A stretch of DNA of 64,000 bases from Bacillota bacterium (GTDB lineage: Bacteria; Bacillota; Sulfobacillia; Sulfobacillales; Sulfobacillaceae): positions 1 to 64,000 of the forward strand of contig JAKACZ010000018.1 in the NCBI GenBank assembly GCA_021820965.1, written 5' to 3'. The position numbers were made by a program, and so were the translations under genes. Position 1 is the first letter of the stretch; each line of letters begins with the position of its first letter. The notes below the pieces were generated by a model. It saw nothing but the letters and a program-made list of their open reading frames with translations, did not search any database and had not been told where the DNA came from. Positions 21,067 through 64,000 of the stretch are shown here, in pieces.

Positions 21067-21118
21067 CCCCCGCCTTTAGGCGTGGGGAGGAAAGCGGGCT
21101 TCCGCCGTTAGGCGGAAA
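21067..21118. repeat. End hairpins of the iscB element (iscB 3' side)
   Basis: Two hairpins follow the iscB stop: TTCCGCCGTTAGGCGGAA (21101-21118, overlapping the last codons) and CCCCGCCTTTAGGCGTGGGG (21067-21086). The second repeats the structure of the hairpin at 22698-22718 on the other side of the gene, so these mark the two ends of an IS200/IS605-like element of roughly 1.7 kb. Confidence 0.55.
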
Positions 21119-22394
21119 CAGGTTTTTTCTCATAATGCCACCCCTCATTGCGTTGAAGAATGCGACAGTGTTTATACGAAATCCCTTGGGCCACTCTTTG
21201 CCCATGGGAGGAAATGTCAAAGCGGCCATTGGCCCGCACCAACACGCGGCCGGTGTGGGTTCCGGCGTACTTCCCTTTCGGCACCACCGCCCGCACGAGG
21301 TCCCCGGTCTGAAACCCGAAGTGGACCTTCTGCCGTGACCGATGCCGGATCGGGAAGCCATAGGCATCGGTCCCACACAGTTGCCGGTTGCCGCGCCCCT
21401 TCGCGGTCCAGATCTGCACGGAGGCCGGCAGGCGGGTGAACCTATCCGGTGCACTTTCGCCCACGCAGAGGGCGTCGAAGTAGTGCTCCTTCGGGAATCC
21501 ATGGTCGAGCCGCTGCTTCTTGGTGCGTCCGCCGGATCCCCCTTCGACGGGCAGCCCCGTCGCTTTCAGCTGTTCATACAACCGCCACCGGGTGGCGTTC
21601 ATCATGGCGGCATCCTTGAGGGGCTTCCGGGCTTGGACTTGGATGTCCGGATGTCCGAATTCCGCCGCGGTCTCATTGTTCTTCGTGAGATTGCAGGGTT
21701 CGCACGCTAAGGTTAAGTTGCTGACCCGATCGGTCCCACCCCGGCTCTTTGGTGCGATGTGTTCCACCTGCAAGGGGACATCGGTGGCGCCGCAGTAAGC
21801 ACAGCGGTGCCCCCACTTCGCTAGCAGGTACTCCCGCACTTCGTAGCCCTGCAAGGTGCTTTGCTGGTATTCCACGCCCGAGATTTCTGCATTCTGTAGC
21901 TTTTGCGTATCGAACTTGACGTGTTCGACGCTGAGATCGGTAATCGGCGCGAATTTTCGGAGTTTCGCCAGGGCATGCAAGGTCTGATCAACCCGGGCTT
22001 CCAAGCTCGGCGGCAACCACCCGTCTTTGCGCTTGCGGTTCTGAAAGCGGGGTTTGCGATAGCGGGTCTTGCGATGCCGTCGCCCTCGACGGAGGGCGCG
22101 TCGGGCATCCAGCTTGGCTTTGATGCCCGCTTTGTGGACAATCTCCCCAAAGAAGAGGACCTTGGGGCCTTTGGCTCCCTCCAAGAGGATGGCCACTCCG
22201 GTCGTCTTGCTGCCTGGGTCAAACTTAACCCGAAGCGGCTGAAACGCGGATTCTGCCGCCGCCCGATCTTTCAAGCGGATGGTGAACGGAGCCATCTGAT
22301 GAATGACCGCTCGACCCCGTTCTAGCAACTGGCGGGCTCGTTTTTCGCTGCAGGGCATTAAGGGTTTCTTCTGTCGGTCCAACACAAAAACCAT
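21108..22394 (-). CDS. iscB: IscB RNA-guided nuclease
   Basis: A transposon-borne ancestor-type relative of Cas9, about 428 residues from ATG 22394 (preceded by GGAGG). An N-terminal PLMP domain (residues 1-45, motif KKPLMPCSEKRARQLLERGRA) is followed by RuvC-I with Asp59 in VKFDPGSKTTGVAI. An arginine-rich bridge helix (98-122) comes next, then RuvC-II with Glu157 in LSVEHVKF. The HNH domain (198-240) has zinc pairs CAYC and CEPC and His212 in VEHIAPKSRGG. RuvC-III carries His304 and Asp307 in KEHYFDALC. All nuclease residues are present, so it is predicted active. Residues past 330 form the target-motif-reading domain. The frame is open 65 codons further upstream, but that segment overlaps the omega-RNA. 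No intact tnpA adjoins it. Confidence 0.93.
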   Translation of the reverse strand: MVFVLDRQKKPLMPCSEKRARQLLERGRAVIHQMAPFTIRLKDRAAAESAFQPLRVKFDPGSKTTGVAILLEGAKGPKVLFFGEIVHKAGIKAKLDARRALRRGRRHRKTRYRKPRFQNRKRKDGWLPPSLEARVDQTLHALAKLRKFAPITDLSVEHVKFDTQKLQNAEISGVEYQQSTLQGYEVREYLLAKWGHRCAYCGATDVPLQVEHIAPKSRGGTDRVSNLTLACEPCNLTKNNETAAEFGHPDIQVQARKPLKDAAMMNATRWRLYEQLKATGLPVEGGSGGRTKKQRLDHGFPKEHYFDALCVGESAPDRFTRLPASVQIWTAKGRGNRQLCGTDAYGFPIRHRSRQKVHFGFQTGDLVRAVVPKGKYAGTHTGRVLVRANGRFDISSHGQRVAQGISYKHCRILQRNEGWHYEKKPVSA

Positions 22395-22735
22395 GAGACT
22401 TCCTCCCTCGCCATCCCCCGTAAGGGGGCTGGTAACGTCTTCGTGCAAAGATCTCTCCGCGCCAATGTTCCCCTGGGTTGCATCGTCCCTCCGCACGGCT
22501 CGCACTACCCCGAGCTGGCGTTTAACGGAGGACCAAAGTCCCGGGACTTCGTTTGAAGCCCGGGAGAGAGCCGGGGGCTGGAGAAGCACCCCCGGGTCTG
22601 CACCATGGGAACGGAGCCGCTCGCCTCCCGCAGCCTACTTGCGAAAGCTGCTGTCAGTTCCGGCGGCTAAGACTGGTCATAGTCGGGCTTTTACAAGCCC
22701 CCGGCTTTAGCCGTGGGGTCTATGACCCGTTTGAT
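22395..22735 (-). ncRNA. Omega-RNA region of the iscB element
   Basis: The roughly 340 non-coding bases directly upstream of iscB are packed with G+C-rich hairpins. Examples are CCCCCGGCT/AGCCGTGGGG at the outer end, CCCGGGCTT/AAGTCCCGGG near 22540-22565, and the CCCCCGGCTC/GAGCACCCCCGGG region near 22570-22600. Near the gene the minus strand reads CCCAGGGGAACATTGGCG then GGAGAGATCTTTGC, resembling the conserved 3' part of known IscB omega-RNAs (as I remember them). The guide would come from just outside the outer hairpin, beyond about 22720. Exact ends are not visible by eye. Confidence 0.7.
22698..22718. repeat. Outer end hairpin of the iscB element
   Basis: CCCCCGGCTTTAGCCGTGGGG folds into a stem with a TTTA loop at the distal end of the omega-RNA region. 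It is the counterpart of 21067-21086 and probably marks the element boundary. The flank beyond it would supply the guide. Confidence 0.55.
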
Positions 22736-23859: not shown

Positions 23860-24135
23860 TCACCGCCCCCGGATGACGTCCTTTAAGGTGCCTCGGACCG
23901 TCTCCACGTCAACGTCGACCATAGCCTCAGCGTTGAGCAGCGCCTCGGCCACACTGCAAGTTTGTACGATACGCCCGACCTGTTCAAGGGCTCCTTGGGC
24001 GGCTGATACCTGGGTTAAAATGGCATGGCACGACTCCTGCTGACTGACCAGCTGCTGGATTCCGCGGATCTGGCCCTCGATCCGTTTAAGCCGATTCAAC
24101 ACGTCTCGTTCATCCCAATACACCTTGCGGCTCAC
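23860..24135 (-). CDS. CsoR/FrmR-family repressor with unusual ligand set
   Basis: A 91-residue helical DNA-binding protein of the DUF156 family, whose members sense copper, nickel, formaldehyde or persulfide. The core RLKRIEGQIRGIQQLVSQQESCHAILTQVSAAQGAL is typical, with the first cysteine at 36. Canonical CsoR then needs His at +25 and Cys at +29 from it; here those are Ser and Ala, and the second cysteine is at 60 (+24). So this is not a standard copper sensor. It is divergent from the glutaredoxin gene across a shared promoter region with an inverted repeat, which suggests it controls that redox cluster. Confidence 0.88.
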   Translation of the reverse strand: MSRKVYWDERDVLNRLKRIEGQIRGIQQLVSQQESCHAILTQVSAAQGALEQVGRIVQTCSVAEALLNAEAMVDVDVETVRGTLKDVIRGR

Positions 24136-24246: not shown

Positions 24247-24486
24247 ATGGTAGTGGTATATACGACGCCGACGTGCCCACACTGCAAGTCGGCCAAACGC
24301 TATCTCAAAGAGCGGCGTATTCCATTTCGCGAAGTGGACGTAAGCCGATCGGAGGAAGCGGGCAGAAGCCTAAAGCGCAAGTCGGGCCAGACCGGAGTGC
24401 CTGTGATTGATGTCAACGGGCAAATCATCGTCGGATTTAACCGGCCCAAGTTGGACCGAGCCTTGGGTATTCGCTCGCTTGATTAG
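24247..24486 (+). CDS. Glutaredoxin-like protein (CPHC)
   Basis: A 79-residue single thioredoxin-fold protein of NrdH/glutaredoxin type. The redox motif CPHC is at residues 10-13 in VVYTTPTCPHCKSAKRYL. The cis-proline lies in TGVPVIDVNG and the C-terminal VGFNRPKLDRAL completes the fold. It would reduce disulfides in the cytoplasm. A GGAGGGG ribosome site lies upstream. It stands in a small redox cluster with the CsoR-family repressor and, 400 bases on, the UGA-containing thioredoxin-fold protein. Its motif TPTCPHC is closely parallel to that protein's TPT-UGA-PYC. Confidence 0.9.
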   Translation: MVVVYTTPTCPHCKSAKRYLKERRIPFREVDVSRSEEAGRSLKRKSGQTGVPVIDVNGQIIVGFNRPKLDRALGIRSLD

Positions 24487-24487
24487 G

Positions 24488-24892
24488 CCAAACTATGATA
24501 GATTCATGCCATAAGGGCCTGGTAAGAGGGCCCGCCATCTTGCAGGTTCAGTACTGTTTGGCGCTGCACCAGCATGTTCGTCGTAGCTGGCGAAATGAAA
24601 GGCGGTTGGCCATCGTGTCAACACATATCCCTTACGAGGGCAGAGACAATGGATTCGGCGACACCATGGTCAAGGTGGTACTCAGGCCGACAACCAGAGA
24701 GCCGCTCTTAAGAGCGTAGAGATTCGTGTATCATGGGCCTAGCTCCATCGTCACCAGCGGCGCAAAGCGCGGACACAGCCCCTAGGCCGACGTGAGAACC
24801 CAAGGCGACTGCCGCGGCGAACATCGGCGCCAGTAATAGCGGGCACCGGGCGAGGCAGCAAAATTGTGATTGTCGATTTCGAGGAGGTTATC
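24488..24892. other. Intergenic stretch without a recognisable gene
   Basis: About 400 bases between the glutaredoxin and the UGA-containing gene. The longest open frames here have no ribosome site and no protein-like pattern. No hairpin with a T-run is obvious. A promoter for the following gene is expected but I cannot place one with confidence. Confidence 0.45.
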
Positions 24893-24893
24893 A

Positions 24894-25544
24894 ATGGCGA
24901 TTATTCAAGAAAACATCCGTGGCGAGGTTCAAGAGTTTTTAAAGGACATGCGGGATCCGGTGACGGTTGATTTCTATCCGCACCCTCAAAGTCCGGCTAG
25001 CGATCCGATGAAACAGTTGCTAAGCGAGCTGCAGGACATCGCGCCCCAGATCCGCGTGGTGCAGCACAACCAGGCCGCTACGCCAATTGCCCCGGAAAAC
25101 CCGGGCGACATTGAAGGCCCGGTAACGACATTCTCGACCAACGACGCGTTCACTGGCATCCGATATCTCGGATTTCCTGGAGGGCAGGAATTTAGCACGT
25201 TCCTTCAAGATTTGCTGGATCTGTCGCAAGCCAGCGACGTCTCGCTTAGCGCGGCGACACAAGAATGGCTGCAGTCCCTAAAAGAGCCGGTGCATCTGGA
25301 AGTCTTCGTCACCCCGACCTGACCATATTGCCCCCGGGCGGTTCGCCTGGCACACGAAATGGCACGAGTCAATCCAAAATACGTCGTAGCCGATATGGTA
25401 GATGCTGCGTCGTTTCCGTCGCTTTCAGACCGCTATGGCGTCTCTAGTGTTCCCGTGACCATCGTCAACGGAAACAGCCAGCAGGTCGGAGCAGTACCGG
25501 AATCTCAGCTAACATCGGTCATACGGCGGGAATTAGGCGTTTAG
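24894..25544 (+). CDS. Candidate selenoprotein: two-domain thioredoxin-fold oxidoreductase, Sec143
   Basis: From ATG 24894 (GAGGAGG site upstream) the frame runs 142 codons, meets one TGA at 25320-25322, then stays open in the same frame to TAG at 25542, giving 216 residues if the TGA is read. The second domain spells EVFVTPT-UGA-PYCPRAVRLAH, then VADMVDAASFPSLSDRYGV and SVPVTIVNG with its cis-proline. The TGA therefore replaces the first cysteine of a CPYC redox motif. The first thioredoxin fold (residues 1-110) has no CXXC. This resembles archaeal-type protein disulfide oxidoreductases or the AhpF N-terminal domain, where only the second fold is active. A SECIS-like hairpin follows the TGA, and a SelB-like C-terminus lies at the window end. 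The alternative is a nonsense mutation in a Cys codon, making two broken halves. Confidence 0.8.
25320..25352 (+). promoter_or_regulatory. Candidate bacterial SECIS element
   Basis: Eighteen bases after the TGA comes the three-base loop GTT, closed by CGGGCG (25335-25340) and CGCCTG (25344-25349) with one G-T pair. An outer TGC/GCA helix (25329-25331 with 25350-25352) adds three pairs around a CCC bulge. Bacterial SECIS elements sit within the coding region just after the UGA, with a small apical loop containing a G roughly 16-37 bases downstream; this one fits. It is by-eye folding only. Confidence 0.6.
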
Positions 25545-25598: not shown

Positions 25599-26453
25599 AT
25601 GCGCGGCTTTTCTCTCGCTTTATCGGGCGGCGGTTTATTGGGGGCAGCCCACTTAGGCGCCTTGAAGTTCCTAGAGGAGAAACGGGTGCACGCCCAAGCC
25701 GTGGCCGGCACCTCCGCGGGCGGTTTGGTGGCCGCCCTCTACGCGCTGAATGTTCCCCTGGATCAAGTCATTGCCGCTGGCCGTGAGGTGTCACAGCACC
25801 CCACCCACTATTTCCACCTAAATACCGGTGGGTTGATTCACGAGATCTGGCGCGGGTCCGGTCCTCCTGCTACGGGCTTGATCAAAGCGCAGCCGTTTCT
25901 GGAGCGTCTCTTGGGGCTCGCTCCTCATGCCAAGAATACAGCCGACTGGACAATTCCTACCGTGCTAACCAGCGTGGACCTGGTCAGCCTTCAAGCTATC
26001 GCCTTCACCAATCGGCCCAAGGTTCATCCAGAGCGCGGTCGGTGGCAGGTCCTGACAAATCAACCGCTCTTGCTGGCCATGCAAGCCACTATGGCTCTCC
26101 CGGGACTATTCGAGGCGCCACGTCCCGGCGACCGGGTTCTGGTCGACGGCGGCACCGCCGACACACTTCCCATCGACTGGGCCTATGCCCTATATGCGGA
26201 CCGCGTGGTCGCCATCGACGTCGCCACGCCGCCACTGGTGAGTGCCGTGGGCGTAGGACTGGCTGAGGTGCTGAGCCGTTCGGAAAGTTATGCGACTGAT
26301 ACCCTGTCGCGCCTGCGGGCGGGGCGCGAAGCCCACATCACCGTACGGCCCGATACCCAACATGTCGCCTTTTTTGGGTTTAAAGACTATGACCGCTTGG
26401 TTGAAGCCGGGTGGATAGCTATGGAGAACGCGTGGCCATCATTAGATCTTTAG
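25599..26453 (+). CDS. Patatin-like phospholipase
   Basis: A 284-residue cytoplasmic protein with the patatin Ser-Asp dyad. The oxyanion loop is SGGGLLGAAHLG (residues 8-19), the nucleophile elbow is GTSAGG (Ser near 40), and the catalytic Asp lies in VDGGTADTLP near residue 186. Such RssA/YchK-type proteins hydrolyse lipid acyl esters; the substrate here is unknown. It begins 54 bases after the candidate selenoprotein on the same strand. Its stop codon overlaps the end of the convergent mutY gene by four bases. Confidence 0.9.
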   Translation: MRGFSLALSGGGLLGAAHLGALKFLEEKRVHAQAVAGTSAGGLVAALYALNVPLDQVIAAGREVSQHPTHYFHLNTGGLIHEIWRGSGPPATGLIKAQPFLERLLGLAPHAKNTADWTIPTVLTSVDLVSLQAIAFTNRPKVHPERGRWQVLTNQPLLLAMQATMALPGLFEAPRPGDRVLVDGGTADTLPIDWAYALYADRVVAIDVATPPLVSAVGVGLAEVLSRSESYATDTLSRLRAGREAHITVRPDTQHVAFFGFKDYDRLVEAGWIAMENAWPSLDL

Positions 26454-27196
26454 GCTTCCGCTGGCTTGGGCCGCGGTGCAATCTGGTACACCTGACCATC
26501 TTCAGCCGCATGTGCGGAGTCTTCCCATCCCCGGCTCACGCACGCGTCCAGCAGGGGACAAATGGTGCATGCCGGCTTTCGTGCTGTACACACCATGGCA
26601 CCAAAGTCCATCAGCGCTTGATTGAAGTCCATCGCCCCTCCGCTGGGGAGGACCGCTTCCGCCAGCGCCCACAGGCGATGGTGCATTTCCGCGCGGGTTT
26701 CCTTAAAGTCAATGCCGAAGTACCGGCCCAATACCCGCTTGACGTTGGTATCCAAAATCGGGGCGTCCTGACCGAACGCAAACGACAAGACCGCCCCGGC
26801 CGTGTAGCGTCCAACCCCAGGAAGGCTCATCAAGTCCTCGACCGTGTTGGGAAACCGACCGCCCCACCGGTTAACCACGGCGGCAGCGATGTCTTTGAGC
26901 CAGCGTCCGCGAATTTTGTAACCGAGCGGGTCGGTAATCGCTTTGACATCTTCCAGCGGCGCCAGGTTTAGCGTCTTCACATCGGGAAACTCCGCGATGA
27001 ATCGGCGGTATACGGGGATGACGGTGGCGACAGTGGTCTGGTGCAACATAATTTCTGACACGATTATCGCATAGGGATCGCGGGTCTGGCGCCAAGGCAA
27101 GTCGCGTCCGTGCTGCCGATACCAGCCGATGACGCCGGATTGAAAGGCTTTCAAGCGAAAATCGTCAATCTTGGCGACGTATTTTACTCGTTTCAC
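26450..27196 (-). CDS. mutY: A/G-specific adenine glycosylase, short form
   Basis: A base-excision DNA glycosylase of about 248 residues, expected to remove adenine opposite 8-oxoguanine. The HhH core LPGVGRYTAGAVLSFAFG, catalytic Glu in IIVSEIMLHQT, and catalytic Asp in PILDTNVKRVLGRYFG are present. So is the [4Fe-4S] motif C-X6-C-X2-C-X5-C (CTARKPACTICPLLDAC). The C-terminal NUDIX-like domain that reads 8-oxoG is absent: the protein ends about 35 residues after the cluster. This leaves its specificity less certain, and a related thymine or uracil glycosylase is possible. I place the start at GTG 27196, which overlaps the upstream stop as GTGA. Confidence 0.88.
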   Translation of the reverse strand: MKRVKYVAKIDDFRLKAFQSGVIGWYRQHGRDLPWRQTRDPYAIIVSEIMLHQTTVATVIPVYRRFIAEFPDVKTLNLAPLEDVKAITDPLGYKIRGRWLKDIAAAVVNRWGGRFPNTVEDLMSLPGVGRYTAGAVLSFAFGQDAPILDTNVKRVLGRYFGIDFKETRAEMHHRLWALAEAVLPSGGAMDFNQALMDFGAMVCTARKPACTICPLLDACVSRGWEDSAHAAEDGQVYQIAPRPKPAEA

Positions 27197-28026
27197 GACA
27201 TCGCCTCGTCCCTCGCCCGACCAAAACTTACCGGACCGCGGCGGTACTGCCACGATCGCAGTAGGCGCGCGCCGAGCGCATACCACAACCCCACCAATAC
27301 GGCGGTCCAGTAGCCAAAAAAGAGCGTGAGGGCCGCACTAAACAGGCCGACTTCCACGCCGAACACGCCGGCGGGAAAATGGTGGGCCAACATGATAAGC
27401 AATATCGCCGCCACGCCCCAAATCACCACAATGGCACTCAAAATCCACAAAAACGCCAGCATCGCCACGGCACCGAATAAGGGGCGCCCGACAATCCAGA
27501 TGACCTGATGACCCTGTGGCGTATGCTCCCGCGACAAAGTCACCGCTCCCCCCAACCTGGTCACAAACTGATTGTACAAGGTTAACGATCCTAAGGCATA
27601 GACCCCCGAGGCTATCAAAAGCATCACCGGAAACAGCATCCAGCGTTCGGGAATAATCACCGTCCAACCCCAAACATTGGCCAATATCCCCCCTGCCAAG
27701 GCAAAGGGCAAGGCCAAGGTTAGTAGGGCCCGGCTGTTGATGCCTACGGGCACGCGGACAATCCGGCCATCGACACTAATCCAGGTCAGGGGATGTGAGT
27801 GGGACCAGAGGCGGTTATACAACCACACGCCAATCCCGCGGGCGCCCAGCAATGAGGCCCAAGTCACCAGGGCCTCCACCGTACCCAATCGCCAGCCCAG
27901 CCGCGTCTGAGACCCGGTCCATATCCATACAAATACCATGGGCAAGGCCCAGACCCAAATGCCAGCCACAATCCACACGCGCGGTGCCACCCATGTCATA
28001 CACTTGACATCGCCCAATCGGCTCAC
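27193..28026 (-). CDS. Multi-pass membrane protein, function unknown
   Basis: A 277-residue protein with about six or seven hydrophobic helices (near residues 15-34, 50-64, 100-118, 125-145, 185-215 and 225-250). A short soluble segment, PLTWISVDGRIVRVPVG, lies near residue 80. I do not recognise the family. It is a Yip1-like or integral-membrane domain at most. The start is GTG with a weak ribosome site; ATG 27999 is an alternative. It is coupled to mutY by a four-base overlap and lies downstream of the PBP-like gene on the same strand. Confidence 0.7.
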   Translation of the reverse strand: MSRLGDVKCMTWVAPRVWIVAGIWVWALPMVFVWIWTGSQTRLGWRLGTVEALVTWASLLGARGIGVWLYNRLWSHSHPLTWISVDGRIVRVPVGINSRALLTLALPFALAGGILANVWGWTVIIPERWMLFPVMLLIASGVYALGSLTLYNQFVTRLGGAVTLSREHTPQGHQVIWIVGRPLFGAVAMLAFLWILSAIVVIWGVAAILLIMLAHHFPAGVFGVEVGLFSAALTLFFGYWTAVLVGLWYALGARLLRSWQYRRGPVSFGRARDEAMS

Positions 28027-49624: not shown

Positions 49625-49824
49625 CGTTAGTGTATAATACCCCCGCCATGCCGCAACGTCCGACGTTTTGAACCTGCCTAGGCAGGTGGGCACCTCCCGT
49701 TGACTTTCGCAGTCCCCACTTACCATCGGGGCAGGACGGCCGCCAACTGGGGTCAGGTTCCCTATGTTTTGGTGTTGGCTCAAAACATATCGGTCTGGTC
49801 CCGAACACGGCAGGGAGAACCTGT
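49602..49824 (-). ncRNA. ssrS: 6S RNA
   Basis: A transcription unit of about 220 bases with its own promoter and terminator but no coding frame. The 5' part (CTGCCGTGTTCGGGACCAG, then CCGATAT) and 3' part (GACGTTGCGGCATGGCGGGG) pair into a long closing stem, and both resemble the ends of E. coli 6S RNA. A short inner hairpin (ACCTGCCTAGGCAGGT) lies on the 3' side of the expected central bubble. 6S RNA mimics an open promoter and traps housekeeping RNA polymerase. In Bacillus the 6S-1 gene lies between aspS and rarA; the same is true here, which is the strongest argument. Mature ends are not known. Confidence 0.75.
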
Positions 49825-63239: not shown

Positions 63240-63897
63240 CTCCCCTAAGAGCCAGAGCCATGATTGAGATGTCGTCGCTCGGCCGGTCTCGTTCCAGATC
63301 GAGCGCATGGTCCATCAAGTCGCCCACAAACTGTTGAATGTCTTTCGCTTGAAGGGTGGCCAGCCGGCTTTCCCAGCGCTCCCACTCAATAGTCGCGCCA
63401 TAGCGGCGGCCGGCATGCATGAGCCCATCCGAGTACGTTAAAAGAACGCTATCGGCGTCGGCGGGAAGCTCGGCCATGGCGGGGCGTGTCTTGCGATAGG
63501 TACCAATCACCTCGGCATGGCCTTCCAGGTAGAAGACGCGGCCTTCCTGCCTCACCATCACCGGGCAGGGTGCATTACGGGCAATGACCAGCGTATGGGT
63601 GTGCAGATCCACCGACAAAAGCGCCAAGGTGGCGGTGACCCGCCCTTCCCGTGCCGTGTAGAGCATATCCTGCACCGCCCGCGCCACCGCCCCGTCGCGC
63701 GACCCATCGGCAATCAACTGCACCGCCCTCATCGCCACCATACGGCTAATCCGGCGCGCGCCCGGGCCCGATCCCTGGCCGTCGGCCAGAATCAGGGTGA
63801 GACCCCCCAGCGGCCGCTCGACCAGTTCGATGCTATCGCCGCTTTGACCCAGGCCGCCTTTGGGCATTTTGCTCCATGCCACTTCCACCCGGCGCAT
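63193..63897 (-). CDS. SpoIIE/RsbU-type PP2C serine phosphatase
   Basis: A 234-residue phosphatase domain without a sensor or membrane part. Metal-binding motifs are LTLILADGQGSGPGARRIS near residue 35, LLTYSDGLMHAG near 150 and DRPSDDISIMALAL near 210. Such domains dephosphorylate anti-sigma-factor antagonists; a stand-alone form may act in general stress or sporulation control. Its ATG shares one base with the stop of the SelB-like gene upstream, so the two are co-translated. Confidence 0.85.
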   Translation of the reverse strand: MRRVEVAWSKMPKGGLGQSGDSIELVERPLGGLTLILADGQGSGPGARRISRMVAMRAVQLIADGSRDGAVARAVQDMLYTAREGRVTATLALLSVDLHTHTLVIARNAPCPVMVRQEGRVFYLEGHAEVIGTYRKTRPAMAELPADADSVLLTYSDGLMHAGRRYGATIEWERWESRLATLQAKDIQQFVGDLMDHALDLERDRPSDDISIMALALRGDDESALRNLHASIPY

Positions 63898-64000
63898 CAG
63901 CTCACCAACTCCCGGCTGTCTCCGACCCGCCTGGTCACCCGTTCCCGGTCCAAAAGCTCCAAAAACAAAACCGTCATCCTCCGGTTGATGCCCAACGCTT
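63897..64000 (-). CDS. selB: SelB C-terminus (selenocysteine elongation factor), partial
   Basis: The window ends inside a minus-strand gene whose last 33 codons read ALGINRRMTVLFLELLDRERV, then TRRVGDSRELVS. This matches, from memory, the very conserved end of SelB's last winged-helix domain (of the form [28 protein letters not shown]). That domain binds the SECIS hairpin of selenoprotein mRNAs. The frame is open to the window edge. The piece is short, so the call rests on one motif; it gains weight from the UGA-containing redox gene at 25 kb. The 5' portion lies outside the window. Confidence 0.65.
   Translation of the reverse strand, partial: ALGINRRMTVLFLELLDRERVTRRVGDSRELVS

Follow-up and report, generated by a model that had tools for sequence, protein, structure and literature searches.

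Codon 143 of a PDO-like gene of a member of the Sulfobacillus family (order Sulfobacillales), an in-frame UGA, is very probably read as selenocysteine (Sec) in a two-domain protein of the TIGR02187 family. The gene lies in a stretch of 64,000 nucleotides (the window) from contig 39 of an assembly of 4.63 Mb (98.84% complete, 5.58% contamination). The reading draws on the homologue alignment, the selection acting on the codons beyond the UGA, the Sec machinery encoded in the same assembly, and a hairpin immediately 3' of the UGA.

Gene structure and reading frame

The frame opens with ATG at 24894 and runs through 142 codons, the TGA, and 73 further codons to a TAG at 25542-25544; apart from the TGA, it contains neither a stop nor a shift (Table 1). 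The TGA occupies the position of the first Cys of a CPYC motif, in the context TPT-U-PYC-PRAV, and the cis-proline region SVPVTIVNG of the product is undamaged. The sequence thus agrees with the earlier note, which had described an unshifted frame broken by one TGA at the catalytic Cys, an intact second fold, and a TPTCPHC motif in the neighbouring glutaredoxin. Annotation of the gene as two fragments or as a pseudogene would mask a functional redox enzyme, and the risk of such misannotation extends to its orthologues throughout the Sulfobacillus family.

Table 1. Features of the window and, in the last row, positions on other contigs of the assembly
Feature	Position	Strand	Remarks
Divergent CsoR/FrmR-family repressor	23860..24135	-	Upstream; recurrent neighbour
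Glutaredoxin, YruB family, TPTCPHC	24247..24486	+	Adjoins PDO-like gene upstream; recurrent neighbour
Ribosome-binding site AGGAGG	24882..24887	+	Sequence
Sec-containing PDO-like gene (very probable)	24894..25544	+	216 residues, U143, stop codon included; homologues, AlphaFold, Foldseek
In-frame UGA, codon 143 (predicted Sec143)	25320..25322	+	27/30 aligned sequences TGA, 3/30 TGC
Resolving Cys146 (TGC), UPYC motif	25329..25331	+	Invariant across alignment
SECIS-like hairpin core, 6-7 bp	25334..25350	+	Apical-loop GU conserved; loop start ~17 nt after UGA
Patatin-like gene	25599..26453	+	Downstream of PDO-like gene
MutY-like glycosylase gene	26450..27286	-	
IscB RNA-guided nuclease gene	21108..22589	-	NCBIfam NF040563, 433 bits
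HEARO RNA	22447..22726	-	RF02033
6S RNA	49636..49819	-	RF00013, 75 bits
selB, C-terminal end	63897..64000	-	Gene runs on, same contig, to about 65.8 kb
Further TGA sites (PDO-like, two; glutaredoxin; peroxiredoxin, two; SelD; thioredoxin)	C4:28343, C21:1181, C41:54695, C52:56159, C56:94356, C65:39600, C96:28152		

Conservation of the UGA codon and of the sequence downstream

The window gene was aligned with 29 homologues, all from the same order (n = 30), and Sec or Cys is conserved throughout at column 143, with TGA in 27 sequences and TGC in 3. When 61 genomes were searched in six frames, almost all of those from the same family and order yielded an orthologue with a single TGA, and nearly all full-length best matches within the order likewise show just one. 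In named public genomes, 80 loci were found, 12 with Sec and 68 with Cys at this column. The genome of Sulfobacillus thermotolerans Kr1, a culturable relative, has the Sec form (L082). Downstream of the UGA, dN/dS ranges from 0.02 to 0.10 in pairs with unsaturated dS, which indicates strong purifying selection, and dN is lower in the second fold than in the first in all pairs tested. The argument of the earlier note that a random nonsense mutation would rarely strike just this codon is borne out by the recurrence of TGA at one column, with TGC in the rest, and the check for downstream decay in homologues, which it had named as a counterindication, came out in favour of its reading. A Cys codon on re-sequencing, another counterindication that it named, is indirectly answered by the TGA of the homologues.

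Selenocysteine machinery

The selA, selB, selC, and selD genes, for which the earlier note had proposed to search, are all present in the assembly: SelA was matched with an E value of 2.4e-138, SelB, on the contig that holds the window, with 354.8 bits, and SelD, which carries a Sec of its own (SKSGUGCK), with 356.4 bits, and a tRNA-Sec has the anticodon UCA. Since selB and the PDO-like gene are on one contig, contamination cannot explain their pairing. Two tRNA-Sec genes are encoded, one of them identical to that of three relatives from the same genus. The second, also with anticodon UCA (C73:140575-140665; L005), is clearly unlike the genus-typical copy on C12 (L006) in sequence and may be either a second real gene or part of a contaminating contig. 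Beside the ordinary tRNA-Sec, the genome holds a gene of tRNA-Sec shape whose anticodon, GCA, is that of Cys (C31:7625-7717; L007 1503-1593); it resembles the selC* tRNA-Cys group (PMC7609411) and is also found in eight relatives (L185-L192).

The genomes G010 and G019, which come from one genus (97% and 96% complete, respectively), contain stop-free forms only, and neither SelA nor tRNA-Sec was matched in either of them. Among the genomes with the UGA form, SelA had no match in G023 and G036, both of which are fragmented assemblies; G023 has tRNA-Sec matches despite the missing SelA match.

Hairpin downstream of the UGA

A hairpin located 14 to 30 nt from the UGA, counted from its first base, was taken as a putative SECIS element. 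In evaluating it, mean folding energy was replaced by a count of how many Sec and how many Cys forms have this particular hairpin. All six pairs were complete in 27 of the 31 distinct Sec sequences and in 0 of the 70 distinct Cys sequences, both sets being phylogenetically clustered, and in the three Cys forms nearest to the window gene the hairpin is broken or weakened. Pairing was found in 89.7% of cells at the true partners, against at most 57.1% when the partners were slid. The stability of the hairpin of the window sequence alone is not unusual (z, -0.81), and, measured against synonymous shuffles, Sec forms did not fold significantly more stably than Cys forms (p = 0.13). No compensatory double changes were seen in the hairpin pairs, and covariation gives no support because the columns are nearly fixed.

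Alternative readings of the UGA

Since TGA is one base away from TGC and TGT, and since annotation pipelines would split the gene, it could be asked whether a nonsense mutation has produced a pseudogene or a Cys codon has been misread as TGA. Against this stand the TGA in the identical column of 27 separately assembled genomes, the strong purifying selection downstream of it, and the lack of TGA where the Sec machinery is absent; because of these three observations, we regard mutation and sequencing error as practically excluded. It is also conceivable that translation for the most part ends at the UGA, whether this is a genuine or a regulated stop, so that the 142-residue first fold predominates and little of the Sec product is made, for example when selenium is short. 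Release factor always competes at UGA in known selenoprotein genes, and the first fold is itself conserved; however, this fold has no redox Cys, and the dN of the second fold is the lower one in every tested pair, which together argue that selection acts on the full product. A predominant stop therefore appears highly unlikely.

Decoding as a different residue, either Cys via a selC*-type tRNA-Cys or Trp via a reassigned code, would be in line with the tRNA-Sec-shaped tRNA-Cys of this genome and its eight relatives, and a selC*-type system has been reported to insert Cys at UGA in Desulfobacterales (PMC9437257). On the other hand, a true tRNA-Sec(UCA) is present together with SelA, SelB, and SelD, and several relatives of the PDO-like gene terminate in UGA, so that this codon is not generally reassigned; the chance that another residue is inserted seems negligible. 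As for Cys, the selC*-type tRNA-Cys was rejected as the decoder because its anticodon is GCA and not UCA.

Family assignment and comparison with known proteins

Read with Sec at codon 143, the product belongs to a family that is already known. With Cys written for Sec, it scored 187.4 bits with TIGR02187 (NCBI name, PDO_seleno_TRX), against a curated cut-off of 185; the margin is small, and the score of 179.4 obtained in the genome scan through the stop falls below the cut-off. With TIGR03140 (AhpF), whose cut-off is 502.9, the product scored 74.2 bits. The AlphaFold model (mean pLDDT, 96.0) consists of two tandem thioredoxin folds, for which Foldseek returned archaeal and Aquifex PDOs first (1j08, 1a8l, and 2ywm) and the AhpF N-terminal domain next, in agreement with the profile search. 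While the identity suggested earlier (PDO/AhpF-NTD-like) is upheld by the TIGR02187 score and these fold matches, the description of the gene as a new selenoprotein had to be abandoned: a "homolog of AhpF, amino-terminal domain" was listed as a selenoprotein in Carboxydothermus and Symbiobacterium in 2006 (PMC1794560), the TIGR02187 selenoprotein family is also listed in PMC9312934, and a 2026 review gives TIGR02187, with UxxC, as "predicted with high confidence" (PMC13188914). An example of these selenoproteins, which are also labelled Grx-like domain proteins, is ABB15282.1. Since TIGR02187 is already in the selenoprotein literature, the gene adds a further member to an established selenoprotein family. 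As far as we searched, previous descriptions seem to be lacking only for the occurrence in Sulfobacillales and for the loss of the first-fold site; no mention of selenoproteins together with Sulfobacillus was found in the literature searched.

The predicted protein shares with the known TIGR02187 selenoproteins the family model, the UxxC motif, the placement of Sec first in the second-fold motif, and bacterial Sec machinery, but the aligned Sulfobacillales members are without the first-fold CxxC that the inspected full-length Sec forms from other families of the class and phylum keep. The N-terminal domain of AhpF is likewise built from two thioredoxin folds, of which only the second has an active CxxC. 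It gives a clear fold match to the window protein (1ZYN, 4XVG, and 5H29); the latter, in contrast to AhpF, would be a stand-alone protein of 216 residues, with Sec and no fused TrxR-like flavoprotein domain. The PDOs of P. furiosus (1A8L), P. horikoshii (1J08), and A. aeolicus (2AYT/2YWM), which are the best fold and sequence matches, have the same two tandem thioredoxin folds and a CPYC-type second site; canonical PDO carries a CxxC in each of its folds (PMC7465337), whereas the window protein has a single site, with a predicted Sec.

Loss of the first-fold site and proposed role

The first fold is without Cys in the window protein and in all other aligned Sulfobacillales sequences, which bears out the earlier suggestion that Sec143 and Cys146 would be the only redox pair. 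Elsewhere, a first-fold CxxC is present in 63 of the 68 Cys forms from named genomes, and it is retained, as CPYC, CQYC, or CMYC, in the full-length Sec forms that were inspected from other orders of the class and phylum. Among the 12 Sec forms of the named-genome loci, 2 have a first-fold CxxC and 10 do not. Cys forms with a single site occur as well (G003, G010, and G019). Between them, the natural variants cover one-site and two-site proteins with either Cys or Sec, a series that would permit a direct test of what Sec contributes to PDO chemistry.

We propose the following route: (i) UGA codon 143 would be decoded by Sec-tRNA(UCA) brought by SelB, guided by the hairpin just 3' of it, the machinery being encoded and the insertion itself predicted; (ii) of the two fused thioredoxin folds, the first, lacking CxxC, would probably be a docking or structural unit; (iii) in the second, U143-P-Y-C146 would form a selenenylsulfide and shuttle electrons; and (iv) these electrons would most likely pass from an NADPH-dependent flavoprotein of the thioredoxin reductase type to disulfide substrates, e.g., peroxiredoxins, partners suggested by archaeal PDO and AhpF. 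In Sulfolobus, it is PDO rather than thioredoxin that receives electrons from NADPH and thioredoxin reductase for the reduction of peroxiredoxins, and the C-terminal site of PDO is fundamental for thiol-transferase activity, while isomerase activity requires both sites (PMC7465337). By analogy with the Sulfolobus enzyme, the present Sec form, with its one site, would most likely act as a carrier of reductant and not as an isomerase, and we lean modestly toward a thiol-disulfide carrier with a TrxR-type donor and peroxiredoxin-type substrates. Peroxiredoxins are encoded in the same genome, two of them with an in-frame TGA at the active site. More tentatively, the first-fold CxxC may have been lost in Sulfobacillales after Sec had been gained at the second site, turning a two-site protein of the oxidase/isomerase type into a dedicated reductant carrier within the selenium-rich thiol system (Sec peroxiredoxins, thioredoxin, glutaredoxin, and three PDO-like proteins) of an acid- and metal-exposed lineage; we see this scenario as plausible, if somewhat short of probable.

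Genomic neighbourhood and further selenoprotein candidates

Several relatives have a glutaredoxin gene near the PDO-like gene, as do Sulfobacillus and two Anaerolineales loci, and a CsoR-type gene likewise recurs near the PDO-like gene in several relatives. On the downstream side, the patatin-like gene converges with the MutY-like glycosylase gene, with an overlap of 4 bases, and the order PDO-patatin-MutY is retained in several relatives. At least seven further selenoprotein candidates with an in-frame TGA at redox sites are encoded in the genome, namely, two peroxiredoxins (TPVU), a thioredoxin (WUPYC), a glutaredoxin (PGUTFC), SelD, and two more PDO-like proteins (PTUAFC and PAUPRC). All of them are in families already known to use Sec, and the genome and its lineage look rich in selenoproteins. 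Elsewhere in the window lie an IscB gene, overlapped on its 5' side by a HEARO RNA, and a 6S RNA.
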